DNA from: Bacillota bacterium
GTDB lineage: Bacteria; Bacillota; Clostridia; Tissierellales; Tissierellaceae
DNA: 52,683 bases
Assembly (NCBI GenBank): GCA_030602225.1
Contig: JAUWAD010000003.1
Span: 1 to 52,683 of the forward strand
Direction of reading: 5' to 3'
Made by a program: the position numbers and the translations under genes. The notes below the pieces were generated by a model, which ran no database searches, was not told the origin of the DNA, and was given only the letters and a program-made list of their open reading frames with translations. This document shows positions 7,424 to 19,690 of this stretch, one piece after another. Every line of letters starts with the position of its first letter. The first letter of the stretch is position 1.

Positions 7424-9070
7424 TTATATCTGGTCTTCTAATCTAATCAATTGGTTTAGTGCTTCTTCCGGTAGTTTATCTCTTCCACCCTTAAAGGATT
7501 CCATGTGCTTTATAAACTCTTTTCTATAGGCAATTGAGTTTAACCACATTTCTTTGTACTTTTCGTCAAATTCTGGAGTAAACCCTTCAATATCAATTGT
7601 CTCTAAGTCTACGAAGTTGCCTAGTTTCTTAAATTTAGCCTCTCCTGTGGCAATGTCTTCAAGGATTTTCAATGTTACCTCTTTAGGTATCTTCCTGTCT
7701 ATGAAATGTCCTGTATTGAATATATAGCAATCCACATTTCTATCCTGGAAAAGAGCTTTGAATTTGTCATAATCATCCTTCAAAGGATACGTTCTGAAAG
7801 GATTTGCATAGGGTTCAATAACAAGGGCATTCATATCAACATTCTTAGCCAGTTTCTCTGCTGTGGACCTCTTTGTAGCAAGAGTTGCTCCCATTACTGA
7901 TGCAAGAATTGAATTATTTATCTTAATAACTGGAGGTAGTGTAGCATCCTTCATTAACCAGGCAATTGCATCCACCGGTTCATCTATCTTATTAACTCTA
8001 TTCTCTGCCCATAGCTTTGATTTTACTGCCCTTCCATTACCATTTCTAATATCCTCAGTGACTATGACCTTTCTTCCTTCATCATCCAAAGTAACTCCAC
8101 AGTTTTGTACAGTAAGCAAGTACTTATTAGATGGATGGGCTGTGGGATAATCTTGAGTCTTATCAAAATATGAAGGTTCCAGTGCTACAGAATACCCTTC
8201 TTTTGTTGAGATTATGTAAGCATCATCGTGTAATATTGTTATATCATATTTATCATCATGTTTTTCATGTGTAAGTGTTGACTTTCCAGATCCTGATAGT
8301 CCAAATACACCCATGGTGTATTTTCTTCCATCATTGAAATTGTATCTCTTCATCCCACCATGACAAGAAGCAAAACCATTTCTATTGGCTAGTCCCCATG
8401 CCAATGTCAAGGTGCCCTTCTTATGTTCTCCAAAATATCTCATTCCAAGTAACAATGCTGTATTATGTTCTGGATTAAATAGTGCTAACCCGTCTGGATG
8501 AGATGGAGGTAAATAATCTGGGTCTGAGAAAACATAAAGATCTCCCTCTGGATATTCTTTTGAATCCTTATACATTCTCATATACTCCTGAGTCAAGTAT
8601 TGGAAGTTCAGTAGCCATGAATACATTATGTTTTCATGTGTTTCTGGAATCAATAAATGAGCTCTCACCATAAAATCAGGATGTAAACCAATGACAACCT
8701 GTGCATGATAAAGTTTTTTATATCTAGATTGATAAACAGCTTCTCTGGCAATTGTTGCCATTTCAGATTCATTTACATTTTGCTCACCAATTATAACTCT
8801 AGCACCTGCAAATCTACCTGTTACAGCTCCATCGTTAAACAATAGTATCTTTGAGTCAGTTGATAATCCCAGTTCCTCTGGTCTATACACCGGCATATCA
8901 GTAACTATAGTCCCTGGTGAGTCCTTAGCCAGTTTATAAGCTTCGCTAATGGAGTTTACCCTTACAACATTGTTTCCATAAAATGCAGTTTCAATAGTGG
9001 TTCTCAAGCAATCAATTAAATGATTCGACTTGGTTAAATCCTCCGGTTTATAATTAGTTATTGTAGACAT
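7424..9070 (-). CDS. pckA: Phosphoenolpyruvate carboxykinase (ATP-type family), divergent
   Basis: This 548-residue enzyme should interconvert oxaloacetate plus ATP with PEP, CO2 and ADP. The kinase P-loop is GLSGSGKST at 257-265, followed by HDDAY at 281-285 in the position of the metal-binding aspartates. A C-terminal stretch CYIFNTGHFIDRKIPKE resembles the family's VNTGW region. Overall it is distant from the E. coli enzyme, whose P-loop reads GLSGTGKTT. A GGAGGGA ribosome site precedes the ATG. It stands alone with its own promoter and terminator. In an amino-acid fermenter it could run toward PEP or, as in some anaerobes, toward oxaloacetate. Confidence 0.78.
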   Translation of the reverse strand: MSTITNYKPEDLTKSNHLIDCLRTTIETAFYGNNVVRVNSISEAYKLAKDSPGTIVTDMPVYRPEELGLSTDSKILLFNDGAVTGRFAGARVIIGEQNVNESEMATIAREAVYQSRYKKLYHAQVVIGLHPDFMVRAHLLIPETHENIMYSWLLNFQYLTQEYMRMYKDSKEYPEGDLYVFSDPDYLPPSHPDGLALFNPEHNTALLLGMRYFGEHKKGTLTLAWGLANRNGFASCHGGMKRYNFNDGRKYTMGVFGLSGSGKSTLTHEKHDDKYDITILHDDAYIISTKEGYSVALEPSYFDKTQDYPTAHPSNKYLLTVQNCGVTLDDEGRKVIVTEDIRNGNGRAVKSKLWAENRVNKIDEPVDAIAWLMKDATLPPVIKINNSILASVMGATLATKRSTAEKLAKNVDMNALVIEPYANPFRTYPLKDDYDKFKALFQDRNVDCYIFNTGHFIDRKIPKEVTLKILEDIATGEAKFKKLGNFVDLETIDIEGFTPEFDEKYKEMWLNSIAYRKEFIKHMESFKGGRDKLPEEALNQLIRLEDQI

Positions 9071-14701: not shown

Positions 14702-14734
14702 AAAAAAAACAGCCTGATATTGATCAAGCTGTTT
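14702..14734 (-). terminator. Terminator of the grd/ykvI operon
   Basis: AAACAGC (14707-14713) pairs with GCTGTTT (14728-14734), with further pairing inside. The minus strand continues into an eight-base T run. It lies four bases past the ykvI stop codon. Confidence 0.9.
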
Positions 14735-14738
14735 AAGG

Positions 14739-15818
14739 CTACTTATTTAGTACTGAGACTCTAACTCGTTTTACTATCATAAAACCAAGTAATAAGATTC
14801 CCACATAACCATTTATTACATAAATTATATTTACCAAAGTATCAAAAGGAACTCTAAGTCCAATAAATACGCCTATTACCGCAAGAACTACTGTTAGTAA
14901 TCTAAATCTATTGGTCTTCTCTTCTGCAAATCTTGCAACAACTTGCCACAGTAATGGTACTGATGTTGTATAAATTCCTGCAACAACTATAAATGAAAAT
15001 ACTATTGCAAGCATTGGTGATATATTTTCAGCAAGTATCAAAGAAGGAACCATAGTTCCTGCCAATTGACCTATGTTTGCCATAATACCTAGGGTAATTA
15101 TTACAAGACCAACGCTAAACCCTAAAGCTCCAAAGCTTGAACCCATCAGTGCTTCTCTTTTACTTATGGAGGTTTTACCCATTGCTGCCATAAATGCTGC
15201 TAACCAGAGCATGCAAAATCCAACATATGAGCCAGCTGCATAAAACCAATTTGTTGATGCCCTTTTCATGGTTAACTCTGGAATAATATCGTTTGCGGCA
15301 GCTATTCCAGATGGATTTTTTAGAATTGCTGATATACCTAAAAAAATTGTAAGTACTACTATTGCAGGACCAATCTTACCAATTATATCAACTATTCTTC
15401 CCAATCCAAATATTACAGTGGACACAGCCAATATCCCAATCATTATCCCACCAAATGAAACTGGAAGTCCATATTGTTGATTTATTGTTGCTCCTGCTCC
15501 ACCTATCATTACGATAAATGACATATAAATAAATGCGATTGAGAAATAGTCATAGAATGTTCCAATGACATTACCACAGTAATACCTGTATATGTCATTC
15601 CCCTTCTCAAATCTCATCTGCTGACCTGTAAGAATGAAATCAGCACCTACATACAGGAATAATAAGAAAACAACAAGCACACCTAATATTCCACTTAAAC
15701 CATAACCACTAAAGTATTGAAGTACCTCCTGGCCTGTAGCAAAACCAGAGCCAATTAAAAATGCTATGAATGCTCCAGCATAAGATATTACTTTGCTCCA
15801 TCTAACATCTTTTCCCAT
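14739..15818 (-). CDS. YkvI family membrane protein, probable transporter
   Basis: The 359-residue protein has about ten hydrophobic segments and begins with VISYAGAFIAFLIGSGFATG, a GSGFATG turn typical of YkvI proteins, which are distant relatives of amino-acid/sodium symporters. Two ATGs are available. AGGAG ends one base before the first (15824) but seven bases before the second (15818), so MGKDVRW is taken as the start. It is the last gene after grdX, grdE and grdB, which suggests uptake of the reductase substrate (glycine, sarcosine or betaine) or export of a product. That link is inferred from position only. Confidence 0.8.
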   Translation of the reverse strand: MGKDVRWSKVISYAGAFIAFLIGSGFATGQEVLQYFSGYGLSGILGVLVVFLLFLYVGADFILTGQQMRFEKGNDIYRYYCGNVIGTFYDYFSIAFIYMSFIVMIGGAGATINQQYGLPVSFGGIMIGILAVSTVIFGLGRIVDIIGKIGPAIVVLTIFLGISAILKNPSGIAAANDIIPELTMKRASTNWFYAAGSYVGFCMLWLAAFMAAMGKTSISKREALMGSSFGALGFSVGLVIITLGIMANIGQLAGTMVPSLILAENISPMLAIVFSFIVVAGIYTTSVPLLWQVVARFAEEKTNRFRLLTVVLAVIGVFIGLRVPFDTLVNIIYVINGYVGILLLGFMIVKRVRVSVLNK

Positions 15819-15843
15819 ATCCATGCTCCTATCTTTTTAATTT

Positions 15844-15865
15844 TCCGGGAGATTTCTCTCCCGGA
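15844..15865 (-). other. GC-rich hairpin between grdB and ykvI
   Basis: TCCGGGAGA (15844-15852) pairs with TCTCCCGGA (15857-15865) around a four-base loop. No good T-tract follows on the minus strand, so it looks more like an mRNA stability or processing element separating reductase from transporter message than a strong terminator. Confidence 0.55.
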
Positions 15866-15870
15866 TTTAG

Positions 15871-17169
15871 TTAGAAGTACTCTACCCCTGAAACTTCAGT
15901 AGTCAATGCAGTCAGTGCTCTCTTAACAAGTTTCTCTCTTAAGTCTAGTTCAACATTTTCAGACAATGTTGGATTCCCTACTGGGTATGGAATAGCAATT
16001 GTTGGAACAATTCTGTTTGCTCCTACTGACTCAGAAATAGTTGTAATAGTTGACATGTGTACTATAGGAATGCCATATCTTTCAATTTCCTTTACCATCG
16101 TTGCACCGCAACGAGTACAGGTGCCTCAGGTGGATGTTAGTATAGCTCCATCTACTCCAGCTTCTTTAAGTTCTTTTCCTATTTCAACACCAAAGGTAAT
16201 GGAATTTCCAACTGATGTCCCAGTACCAGTCGTTGTATAGAAGTACTGGTATATTTCTCCTATTTCCCCATCCTTCTCGTATTTTTTCAATACATCAAGG
16301 GGAGCAACTCTATCTGGAAACTCATTAGCATACACTGGGTCATAACCACCATGGATAGTGTAGTATCCACCCTTTAAGCTATCAATATCTTTAATATTGT
16401 ACTTACCCCATTTTTGTGCACTTGCTGATTGAATTCTATCTGGATTTCCTTTTGGAACTATTCCACCACTGGTAATCAAAGCAATCTTAGCCTTCTTAAT
16501 GTCCTTAATTGCAGCAGCTGGTTCAACCTTGTCAAAAACAGGCATTGGTAATTCGGTTTCAAAAGCTTCACCTTTTAGTCTCGCGACCAACATCTTAACC
16601 GCTCTTTCAGAACCTCTTTCATCTGCAAACACAGTAAGTCTCTTTCCTTGAGGGAAGTAACCTTCATCCTGTGGTAAACCCAATTCTTCTTTATTAAGTA
16701 ATTTCTTGGTGATTTTTGCCATAACTGGTAGAGCATTTCTCATTCCTGCTGCAGAATCACTTACTTCAACTACGATAGCTTTTGCTTTACAGTGATCAAC
16801 AGCTGGATTCTCCTTATACATACCTGTAACAACTGGTATGCCAAGTTCGTCAACTACGTAATTTGCAACACCAGCACAAGCCATACCGTATCTTCCTGCA
16901 TTAAACGCAGGGCCAGCTACTACTATATCTGGATTTACTTCGCTTACTGCATCTATTATAAACTTAAGTGCTTCTTCTTCATGTTCATTAAAGTAGTTAT
17001 CACCACAGATTAGGGTTGCTACAACTTCTGCTTCTCCACCTAATAGCTGCTCAAATCCCAATGCTGGTCCTACTTTTTCCATTTTCAATATAGGTTTTAT
17101 ATCCGCTTTTTCTTCTCCACCTATTTGACCAAAGAATTGATTAACATAATACAATACTTTATAAGTCAT
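15871..17169 (-). CDS. grdB: Glycine/sarcosine/betaine reductase component B, selenoprotein subunit (GrdB family)
   Basis: The gene is read as 432 residues through an in-frame TGA at 16126-16128 that encodes selenocysteine 348. The context is ILTST-U-GTCTRCGATMVKE, the conserved GrdB active site, with a cysteine three residues later (U-x2-C). Component B binds the amino acid and passes the carboxymethyl group to selenoprotein A. The N-terminus YKVLYYVNQFFGQIGGEE and the length match GrdB and its paralogues GrdF and GrdH. An ordinary gene caller splits it into a 347-residue front and a 75-residue tail. GAGGAGG precedes the ATG, and grdE ends 14 bases upstream. Which of the three substrates it uses cannot be decided from this window. 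Confidence 0.93.
16099..16128 (-). promoter_or_regulatory. Selenocysteine UGA and candidate bacterial SECIS
   Basis: Directly after the UGA the minus strand can form GCACC (16120-16124) with GGTGC (16103-16107) around a 12-base loop, or alternatively CGTTGC (16108-16113) with GCAACG (16099-16104) around GGT. Bacterial SECIS hairpins lie just 3' of the UGA and recruit SelB. The two stems overlap, so only one can form at a time. Confidence 0.7.
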
Positions 17170-17183
17170 CTTATTCCCTCCTC

Positions 17184-18470
17184 TTAATAAAGTTTAACTG
17201 TTAGGTTATGATAACCTATTTCAGATGTTGAACCTATAACGGCATTAAGCTCACACTTCATACTACCATCATCATTTATACATCCTTCCCATCCACCAGC
17301 AAGTGTAGCAATTGCCTCTGGATTACCTAGTACCTTCTCAGCTGGAGGTAAATTGACAACATGACTTACATTACCTGCTGAAACAACAGCAACAGCTTCC
17401 TTAGTAGTATCAGCAAGCGGCTGGCTCATTCCATCCCATCCTGAACATTCGTCAGTTATTAGTACTGTCTTAATTCCTGAGTCCTCCAATCTCTTACAGA
17501 TCATAAGTAAATCTGAATCTGGATTTCCATAACCTTCCTCAGAAATTATAACTCCATCTGCTCCAAGGCTCTTACAAAGCTTTGCAGTATAGTCACAAGT
17601 TCTAAACTTACCTTCTAATGTTGTTAATTCAGGAGTTAAGATTACTCCCATGAAGTTTATATCCTTACCATGTCTGTTGTATAGGTCAATTATTGAAGAG
17701 TTATTCTGATGTTGATAAGTTGTTATCTTGTCACAAGCAGCAACACAGTTTCCACTTATTACTGCACCATCAAGTTCTTCATTTGGATGAATTAGTGTTG
17801 GTAAGATCTTCTGACTGTTCACTCCATATATATAACCATCGTGTAATAATCCTTGTGAAATTAACATTTCTACATAAAGAACCTTTGGAAGGTCAGGATA
17901 CTTATTAGTTTCCTCGAATATACTTCCCATTTCATATACTTCTACTTCATCACTAGTTATGTTTCTAGCCACTTCTCCAACTATCTCAGCAGCTCTTAGT
18001 CCAGCGATTCTCACCGTTGTTTCATGGTCATGTGGTTGAAGTCCATCAACAACGCTAATATCAACAACTATATTGTATGTAGTTGAAAATGGAGTCCACT
18101 TTGCTCCTTCTCCCCACATATCAACAACACCTTCCTGGAATCCCACTATATCTCCAATTGTTACTATTGCAGCCCCACTAAGAACATTCACAACACCTGA
18201 TCCCAACTGCTCCATCTTTGTAGTAACTCCTGGGAATCCATTTCCTGAACCTTCAACTTTAACTCTCGGTTCTATTACATCTTTTACTGGAATAATTCTA
18301 GTCTTATCTCCAGGTTTCGCAATGTCAACCTTCACGCTCTTAACATTTACATCCTCCATCAAACCATCGATGATAACTTGTGGGTCTATTGTTAGAAGAC
18401 CATTTTCAAACTTCATTTCATTTCCTAATGCCAAATCAGTTACTTTGATTTTTCTTAATTCTAATTTCAA
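17184..18470 (-). CDS. grdE: Glycine/sarcosine/betaine reductase component B, proprotein subunits (GrdE family)
   Basis: This 428-residue proprotein of component B matches GrdE in length. The motif VISGNCVAACDK places Asn241-Cys242 at the known self-cleavage site, which yields two subunits and a carbonyl group at the new N-terminus for binding the substrate amino group as a Schiff base. It works with GrdB in the cytoplasm. The start codon is TTG, supported by AGGAGGTG seven or eight bases upstream. It sits between grdX (17 bases) and grdB (14 bases) in one operon. Paralogues GrdG (sarcosine) and GrdI (betaine) share this motif, so the symbol is a family label. Confidence 0.93.
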   Translation of the reverse strand: MKLELRKIKVTDLALGNEMKFENGLLTIDPQVIIDGLMEDVNVKSVKVDIAKPGDKTRIIPVKDVIEPRVKVEGSGNGFPGVTTKMEQLGSGVVNVLSGAAIVTIGDIVGFQEGVVDMWGEGAKWTPFSTTYNIVVDISVVDGLQPHDHETTVRIAGLRAAEIVGEVARNITSDEVEVYEMGSIFEETNKYPDLPKVLYVEMLISQGLLHDGYIYGVNSQKILPTLIHPNEELDGAVISGNCVAACDKITTYQHQNNSSIIDLYNRHGKDINFMGVILTPELTTLEGKFRTCDYTAKLCKSLGADGVIISEEGYGNPDSDLLMICKRLEDSGIKTVLITDECSGWDGMSQPLADTTKEAVAVVSAGNVSHVVNLPPAEKVLGNPEAIATLAGGWEGCINDDGSMKCELNAVIGSTSEIGYHNLTVKLY

Positions 18471-18487
18471 AATCTACACCTCCTGGA

Positions 18488-18871
18488 TTAATTTATAGAC
18501 TTTAGTCTTTCATGTTCATTTATTGCTTCGTTTAAAAGTTGTATATCTATCATTGCATAATCATCCTTATGCTGATAATCTGTTTTTCGGTTGAAAGTAT
18601 TCTTTCTGTAATCTTCGATACTGTTTTCTGCAATACTTACATGGAATTCATTAAATTCTTTTTGGTAACTACTCAATAAAACTGACCTGTATGGTGAAAA
18701 CATCATTCTTATGCTAGCTCCTAAAGGGTGTGTAATCAATTCATGTCCTTGATGCACCATATCCCTTACCTTTACTAATAACTCCTCAAGAGTTAACTCT
18801 AAGTAAACGCTGTTGGTGAAACTTTCCCTTACTATGGGATTATTGGTGATAATTAAGTAGTCCTTGTTCAT
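18488..18871 (-). CDS. grdX: GrdX family protein, first copy
   Basis: The 127-residue protein has the GrdX hallmarks YLIITNNPIV near the N-terminus and VHQGHELITHPLGASI near residue 60. GrdX commonly leads glycine reductase operons; its function is not established. The ATG at 18871 is preferred because GAGGAG lies eight bases upstream and overlaps a further upstream ATG. This copy departs from the usual HPLSGSxKPNETPY block, reading HPLGASIRMMFSPY, whereas the copy at 26.1-26.4 kb keeps it. It is the first gene of the grdX-grdE-grdB-ykvI operon. Confidence 0.87.
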   Translation of the reverse strand: MNKDYLIITNNPIVRESFTNSVYLELTLEELLVKVRDMVHQGHELITHPLGASIRMMFSPYRSVLLSSYQKEFNEFHVSIAENSIEDYRKNTFNRKTDYQHKDDYAMIDIQLLNEAINEHERLKSIN

Positions 18872-18954
18872 GGCAACACTCCTCATACTATTTTATTAAT
18901 TTCAGATTTCACCCTTTCTTTTGTCTATTTTTTATCAAGTTGTATTTATTTATT

Positions 18955-18994
18955 ATTCTACATGTTTTTTAATTGTATTTCAATAGTATTTCAA
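18955..18994 (-). promoter_or_regulatory. Promoter and candidate GntR operator of the grd operon
   Basis: The -35 box TTGAAA (18978-18983) and -10 box TAGAAT (18955-18960) are exactly 17 bases apart. Two adjacent 11-bp repeats on the minus strand, TTGAAATACTA (18984-18994) and TTGAAATACAA (18973-18983), overlap the -35. GAAATACAA also lies in the gntR promoter, so this is a candidate binding site for the neighbouring regulator. Confidence 0.68.
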
Positions 18995-19002
18995 AAATAA
19001 TT

Positions 19003-19043
19003 AATAAAAAAATACCACTTAAGATTTTTCCATCTTAAGTGGT
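19003..19043 (-). terminator. Terminator after gntR
   Basis: ACCACTTAAGAT (19014-19025) pairs perfectly with ATCTTAAGTGGT (19032-19043). On the minus strand the hairpin runs into ATTTTTTTATT. Confidence 0.92.
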
Positions 19044-19048
19044 GTATT

Positions 19049-19690
19049 TTACAACATTTCGTTTTTTATTTTTGAAACAAACTCATCAATATGCTCTCTA
19101 GTATACTTTTCTGCCTTTTCAACATCCTTTTCCTTTATTGCCTGGAGTACTTTCCCAAGGGAATCTGTGAAAAGGGTGATATCATCAAAATACCTTTCAC
19201 AATAATGCCACAGTCTTTCTGTATGATAGTGAAGGTTTGTAAGTATATCCTCTAGCCATGGATTGTCACAACTTGAAAATATGATTTCGTGAAACTCTTC
19301 ATCATCATTAATGGCCTCTTGATAATCTGTTTCTATATCGTAATGCTCCAATCTTTCTACAATTTCTTCCAATCTAGCCAAGTTCTCTGGTGTTATTCTC
19401 TCCACTGCCAATCTAGTTGCAAATGGATCCAATTCCCTTGTGACTTCAAACACAGCCTTCATCTTCCTAAAATCCATAGGGGCAACTTGTGCTCCAAATC
19501 TTGGGATTATGTTAAGAAGCTTATCACTACTAAGCATTTGAAATACCTTTCTAATTGGCGTCCTGCTTATATTAAATTCCTCGGCAAGATCCACTTCATT
19601 TAGTATTTCCCCAGGCTCATATTCAAGGTGAATAATTCTAGATTTTAGTATCTCATATATCTGTTCAGTTTGTATTTTGTTTTCTTCCAT
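19049..19690 (-). CDS. GntR family regulator, FCD (FadR-like) subfamily
   Basis: This 213-residue protein has an N-terminal winged helix (about 8-68, with LAEEFNISRTPIRKVFQML as the recognition region) and an all-helical FCD ligand domain (about 75-210). Metal ligands Asp130 and His134 (DEEFHEII) and the last histidine, His200 (REHIDEF), are present. The middle histidine seems replaced, the usual EH position reading DS near residue 177. It lies between pyk and the grd operon, with its own promoter carrying the same GAAATACAA motif as the grd promoter. It probably controls itself and the grd genes in response to a small carboxylate or amino acid; this is inferred. Confidence 0.85.
   Translation of the reverse strand: MEENKIQTEQIYEILKSRIIHLEYEPGEILNEVDLAEEFNISRTPIRKVFQMLSSDKLLNIIPRFGAQVAPMDFRKMKAVFEVTRELDPFATRLAVERITPENLARLEEIVERLEHYDIETDYQEAINDDEEFHEIIFSSCDNPWLEDILTNLHYHTERLWHYCERYFDDITLFTDSLGKVLQAIKEKDVEKAEKYTREHIDEFVSKIKNEML

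Follow-up and report, generated by a model that had tools for sequence, protein, structure and literature searches.

Gene layout and signals of the operon

The window, the 52,683-nucleotide stretch of DNA that was analysed, is one entire contig (C82) of a draft genome that comprises 138 contigs and 2.08 Mb. Its open reading frames place the genes grdX, grdE, grdB and ykvI, in that order, on the minus strand at 14739-18871, with gaps of 17, 14 and 46 bases between them. The features of the locus are as follows.

14707..14734, minus strand: terminator-like hairpin downstream of ykvI
14739..15824, minus strand: ykvI-like membrane protein of 361 aa, a predicted sarcosine importer (from linkage; the P. 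acidaminophilum counterpart has 66% identity)
15844..15865, no strand: perfect 9-bp inverted repeat between grdB and ykvI (from sequence)
15871..17169, minus strand: grdB-type (grdF-like) selenoprotein subunit of component B, 432 aa (PF07355, GRDB, 531.2 bits; TIGR01918, 628.2 bits)
16088..16125, minus strand: SECIS element directly after the TGA (Rfam RF01990, SECIS_4; 63.5 bits, E 1.2e-13)
16126..16128, minus strand: in-frame TGA, selenocysteine 348, which opens the UxxCxxC motif
17184..18470, minus strand: grdE-type (grdG-like) subunit of component B, 428 aa, TTG start (PF09338, Gly_reductase, 636.5 bits)
17745..17750, minus strand: Asn241-Cys242 of grdE (alignment motif)
18488..18871, minus strand: grdX, small protein, from the second ATG; the longest frame starts at 18886 (NF038093, 111 bits)
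18955..18983, minus strand: weak candidate for a sigma-70-like promoter upstream of grdX (22 such sites against 22.3 expected in shuffles)
19014..19043, minus strand: terminator-like hairpin behind the GntR gene and ahead of grdX
19049..19690, minus strand: GntR/FCD regulator gene upstream of grdX, a possible local regulator (PF07729 and PF00392)

Both component B subunits match their Pfam families over the whole models. The grdB gene forms a single 432-residue frame only when selenocysteine is assigned to the TGA at 16126-16128, and the adjoining SECIS_4 element together with this in-frame TGA marks it as a selenoprotein gene; the in-frame UGA, the SECIS and the UxxCxxC motif by which a component B GrdB is recognised are all present. 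In GrdE, Asn241-Cys242 is presumably the cleavage site that yields the pyruvoyl group in glycine-type GrdE. For grdX, the internal ATG at 18871 looks better placed than the start of the longest frame. Most of 80 loci collected from relatives show the same grdX-grdE-grdB order, which is therefore not due to chance. The inverted repeat at 15844-15865 could set different levels of grdB and ykvI. Elsewhere in the window, 7424-9070 encodes a distant phosphoenolpyruvate carboxykinase-like protein, far under the curated cut-offs (143.3 of 369 bits).

Other grd loci of the genome

The first-pass annotation had described an operon without grdA, grdC or grdD, and this was confirmed on the contig and by whole-genome searches. 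GrdA was found on C76 only, and PF02504 matched on C59 (grdD) and C42 only, the C42 match being presumably plsX; the operon is thus truly without components A and C. The whole genome contains three GrdE-type genes (one each on C76, C72 and the window contig) and two GrdB-type genes, plus the end of a third on C59. At its end C76 carries trxB-trxA-grdE-grdA, while C59 opens with the C-terminal 76 residues of another GrdB, followed by an open reading frame that we read as grdC and then by grdD. From this arrangement we infer one glycine operon broken across the two contigs. The glycine grdB appears to fall in the gap between the end of C76 (L007) and the start of C59 (L008), and because the operon is split at contig ends, the draft annotation may miss this gene.

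On C72, grdI-grdH is followed by a BCCT transporter gene. A BCCT gene adjoins 8 of the 11 betaine loci and is the usual mark of betaine; this pair is the genome's betaine component B. With the glycine and betaine B components at other loci, the window operon encodes a third, extra component B. Being the sole component B of the genome would have spoken against the first-pass proposal, and this is not the situation found. The absence of A and C here suggests that this component B relies on those of the glycine operon on the other contigs.

A separate clade and its gene neighbours

Trees were made of GrdE (65 rows), GrdB (65 rows) and both joined (40 rows), rooted on betaine, with supports given as SH-aLRT of quick trees; the groups do not include the outlying GrdE-like row L205. 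The window proteins fell in one clade, with support 93 (GrdE), 97 (GrdB) and 99 (joined), which contains the proteins of Tissierella creatinophila and Sporomusa ovata in both subunits and is separate from the glycine, P. acidaminophilum-type GrdG/F and betaine GrdI/H groups. Glycine and P. acidaminophilum-type GrdG rows formed the group beside it (support 98, 93 and 99 in the same order), and in the GrdB tree GrdF sat inside the glycine rows. A position within the glycine group, which the first-pass annotation had named as evidence against its proposal, was seen in none of the trees made. Forcing the clade and GrdG together was not rejected for GrdE (p 0.52) or GrdB (p 0.376) and bordered on rejection in the joined tree (p 0.053).

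NF040793 and NF040794, the P. acidaminophilum-type sarcosine models, scored under cut-off (535.9 of 780 and 615.7 of 800 bits), the betaine reductase B model NF040795 likewise (543.1 of 775 bits), and the window GrdB just missed the glycine reductase B model TIGR01917 (594.7 of 602.2 bits). The 780-bit GrdG cut-off of NF040793 was reached in 0 of the 34 clade-holding genomes tested (34 of the 80 loci). Across the 198 genomes of one order, the clade, taken as at least 62% identity to the window GrdE, is present in at least 35. Among the matches listed, the GrdG type is present in 11 of these genomes, 10 over the NCBIfam cut-off and one with a cut copy at 778.5 bits, and no genome has both the clade and the GrdG type. 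The sarcosine models thus take in just one of the two lineages. As a side observation, many glycine-type GrdE matches of one genus (g240, family code f103) hold one TAG or TAA inside the match, which may be a stop near the end.

The Asn-Cys motif of GrdE was present in 81/81 clade, 37/37 glycine-type and 11/11 GrdG rows and in 0/10 betaine rows. All 10 betaine rows, including the GrdI at L003:6247-7572, have GSFMPxSS instead of this pyruvoyl site, a sequence that suggests a different way to hold the quaternary amine. Residue 244 of GrdE is Ala in the 81 clade and 11 GrdG rows, Ser in the 37 glycine-type rows and Pro in the 10 betaine rows, and we treat it as only a lead to a specificity determinant. 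Together with residues 314, 364 and 412 it distinguishes the window protein from all 37 glycine-type rows. Shared specificity residues uniting the clade with GrdG were considered and rejected, being outnumbered by columns of other groupings: conserved GrdE columns numbered 5 for clade and GrdG against glycine, 10 for clade and glycine against GrdG, and 14 for GrdG and glycine against the clade, and the corresponding GrdB counts were 3, 5 and 13. These counts indicate no excess of convergence between the clade and GrdG/GrdF. The selenocysteine site has no letters in 31 of the 37 glycine GrdB rows and 1 of the 10 betaine rows, we think because short loci end before the site. By sequence, no credible solved structure related to GrdE or GrdB was found, a limit of 1 giving only chance-level rows (E 0.46 or worse). 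The AlphaFold model of GrdE has a mean pLDDT of 83 and is unresolved at 243-248, 342-368 and 414-428, which includes 244 and 364, two of the five residues of interest; a Foldseek search with it gave no match at E 0.001.

Gene neighbourhoods were compared between 79 clade loci and control sets of 11 GrdG, 21 glycine and 11 betaine loci, all counts being from related genomes and without kinship correction. Of the 80 collected loci, L122 has a glycine-type gene order and was placed among the glycine controls. An N-carbamoylsarcosine amidase gene was found near 13/79 clade, 1/11 GrdG, 0/21 glycine and 0/11 betaine loci; the best solved match of this neighbour is 1nba (E 1.4e-58). Either a hydantoinase or this amidase was nearby at 14/79 clade loci, and hydantoinase at 0/21 glycine and 0/11 betaine loci. 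Hydantoinase and N-carbamoylsarcosine amidase form a route from N-methylhydantoin to sarcosine (PMC4417704). Among the matches listed, the amidase occurs in 16 of the 198 genomes; the clade is present in 13 of these and a GrdG-type gene in 2, while the remaining one, G536, has neither B type. Gene neighbourhood ties the clade to the creatinine route. Neither this amidase nor MttB, each a possible internal source of sarcosine, was found in the window's own genome.

A GntR/FCD gene was nearby at 38/79 clade loci against 0/43 control loci. BCCT transporters, as at betaine loci, occur at 8/79 clade loci. In Desulfosporosinus, Syntrophomonas and other organisms, clade loci run trxB-trxA-grdA-grdC-grdD-grdX-grdE-grdB, and some of them also include MttB-type methyltransferases. 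At 16/79 clade loci none of YkvI, NSS, amidase, hydantoinase or MttB was nearby; in some of these the contig ends.

The protein at 14739-15824, which we take to be YkvI, has many hydrophobic stretches and matched no Pfam or NCBIfam model. YkvI was nearby at 28/79 clade, 8/11 GrdG, 0/21 glycine and 0/11 betaine loci. Directly after grdB there is a YkvI gene in 22/79 clade loci (window included) and an NSS gene in 18. NSS symporters were nearby at 21/79 clade loci, with one locus having both NSS and YkvI, and at 0 of 21 glycine operons. In a YkvI tree of 63 rows, several of which are the same gene fetched twice and whose distant outgroup rows are not on one branch side, the linked proteins formed one group of 46 rows with support 100, in which clade- and GrdG-linked proteins were mixed; one YkvI subfamily therefore serves both kinds of locus. 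Among 40 relatives, YkvI of at least 55% identity was found in 9 genomes, each time with a clade or GrdG gene no more than about 3 kb away, and distant YkvI relatives in other genomes have 21-38% identity.

Some further YkvI observations were made. The hypothetical protein after P. acidaminophilum grdF (L183:10754-11869) is a YkvI homologue 66% identical to that of the window. In a genome of the same genus (G489:C1:883753-883908) there is a 52-residue YkvI-like stretch with 65% identity and one TGA, and no clade match among the matches listed, as if the operon had been lost. Another same-genus genome (G527) and a Gudongella sp. contig (L049) carry identical YkvI proteins, so Gudongella, in the Tissierellaceae, is probably the source of the window.

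Sarcosine as the probable substrate

The window grdE and grdB very probably encode component B of sarcosine reductase, judging from the sequence comparisons. The clade is best explained as a Tissierella/Sporomusa-type sarcosine B, distinct from the P. acidaminophilum GrdG/GrdF type. Of the sarcosine, betaine or novel substrate originally proposed, sarcosine is the best supported, betaine now being assigned to another locus with a BCCT transporter. The suggestion that the operon has its own uptake protein gains weight from a YkvI of the same kind beside the named grdGF sarcosine operon of P. acidaminophilum. On the strength of linkage, we think that the YkvI of the window is probably a sarcosine importer, which is a new prediction: the titles and abstract openings listed for YkvI and for sarcosine transport, mostly of openly available papers, made no mention of it.

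The pyruvoyl and selenium chemistry proposed here is that of glycine reductase. By analogy with that enzyme, sarcosine imported by YkvI would be bound by GrdE/GrdB through the pyruvoyl group and the selenocysteine. The carboxymethyl group would then pass to the GrdA selenocysteine with release of methylamine, after which GrdCD would make acetyl phosphate and thioredoxin would restore GrdA.

The substrate of the clade might instead be a different N-substituted glycine (N,N-dimethylglycine, creatine or a compound not yet known), with sarcosine at best a side substrate. The clade stands as a separate lineage in the trees and lies below the sarcosine-model cut-offs, and the presence of NSS at 21/79 and YkvI at 28/79 loci means that substrates may vary inside it. 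We nevertheless regard this as improbable, since the amidase and hydantoinase neighbours lead to sarcosine, and the gene content of T. creatinophila, the DCMF induction (both below) and the YkvI of the named grdGF operon also argue for sarcosine.

That the operon supplies a second component B for glycine, as a spare or for other conditions, is very unlikely. The Asn-Cys site and UxxCxxC are kept, GrdE shares 51% identity with the glycine GrdE of the genome and GrdB comes near the glycine cut-off, but the window lies outside the glycine group in every tree, GrdE residues 244, 314, 364 and 412 depart from all glycine-type rows, and YkvI, NSS, amidase and hydantoinase are absent from all 21 glycine operons. 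A second betaine component B is harder still to credit: membership of the same superfamily and the BCCT genes at 8/79 clade loci fit it, yet the window has the Asn-Cys site that betaine-type GrdI lacks, and the genome's own betaine pair, with 39% identity to that of the window, sits beside BCCT on C72.

If sarcosine is the substrate, a common selenoenzyme clade missed by the current sarcosine models gains a proposed substrate, and so does a transporter that no Pfam or NCBIfam model matched here. The kind of enzyme is already known; the role of YkvI is the new part. A wider view, which we advance tentatively, is that a dedicated YkvI subfamily is the anaerobes' sarcosine importer, common to both sarcosine lineages with NSS as the alternative, and that sarcosine use arose twice or predates glycine use.

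Among known systems, T. creatinophila degrades creatinine via sarcosine (PMC5364220), and its sarcosine reductase has been purified according to a reference given in that paper. Of the two GrdE-type proteins of T. creatinophila, one is glycine-type (677.8 bits) and the other belongs to this clade (558.1 bits). Its locus shares with the window the order grdX-grdE-grdB-ykvI, with 79% (GrdE), 73% (GrdB) and 67% (YkvI) identity, and differs in that grdA precedes grdX. S. ovata DSM 2662 also has two GrdE-type proteins, one of this clade (GrdE 70% identical, GrdB in the same clade) and one betaine-like, but there the B genes lie beside methyltransferase genes, with no YkvI in that stretch. The GrdG/F of DCMF cluster with the S. 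ovata sarcosine reductase genes in the authors' own comparison (PMC6778437). In PMC9768040, the DCMF trxB-trxA-grdA-grdC-grdD-(hypothetical)-grdG-grdF proteins are strongly up on glycine betaine, which in the model given there is demethylated to sarcosine and cleaved to methylamine. This gene order is matched by the Desulfosporosinus and Syntrophomonas clade loci; unlike the window, the Desulfosporosinus loci have A and C within the same cluster.

The P. acidaminophilum GrdG/GrdF operon has the order grdX-grdG-grdF-ykvI, its YkvI (66% identical) being annotated as hypothetical, but its B subunits have only 52% and 54% identity to those of the window and lie closer to glycine GrdE/GrdB when both subunits are joined in one tree. 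Glycine reductase GrdE/GrdB share the families, the Asn-Cys site and the selenocysteine motif, whereas their operon includes A and C, they belong to another clade and their 21 loci are without YkvI, NSS or amidase. Betaine reductase GrdI/GrdH resembles the window in being a B-only operon with its own transporter, and differs in that this transporter is BCCT and that GrdI is without the Asn-Cys site.
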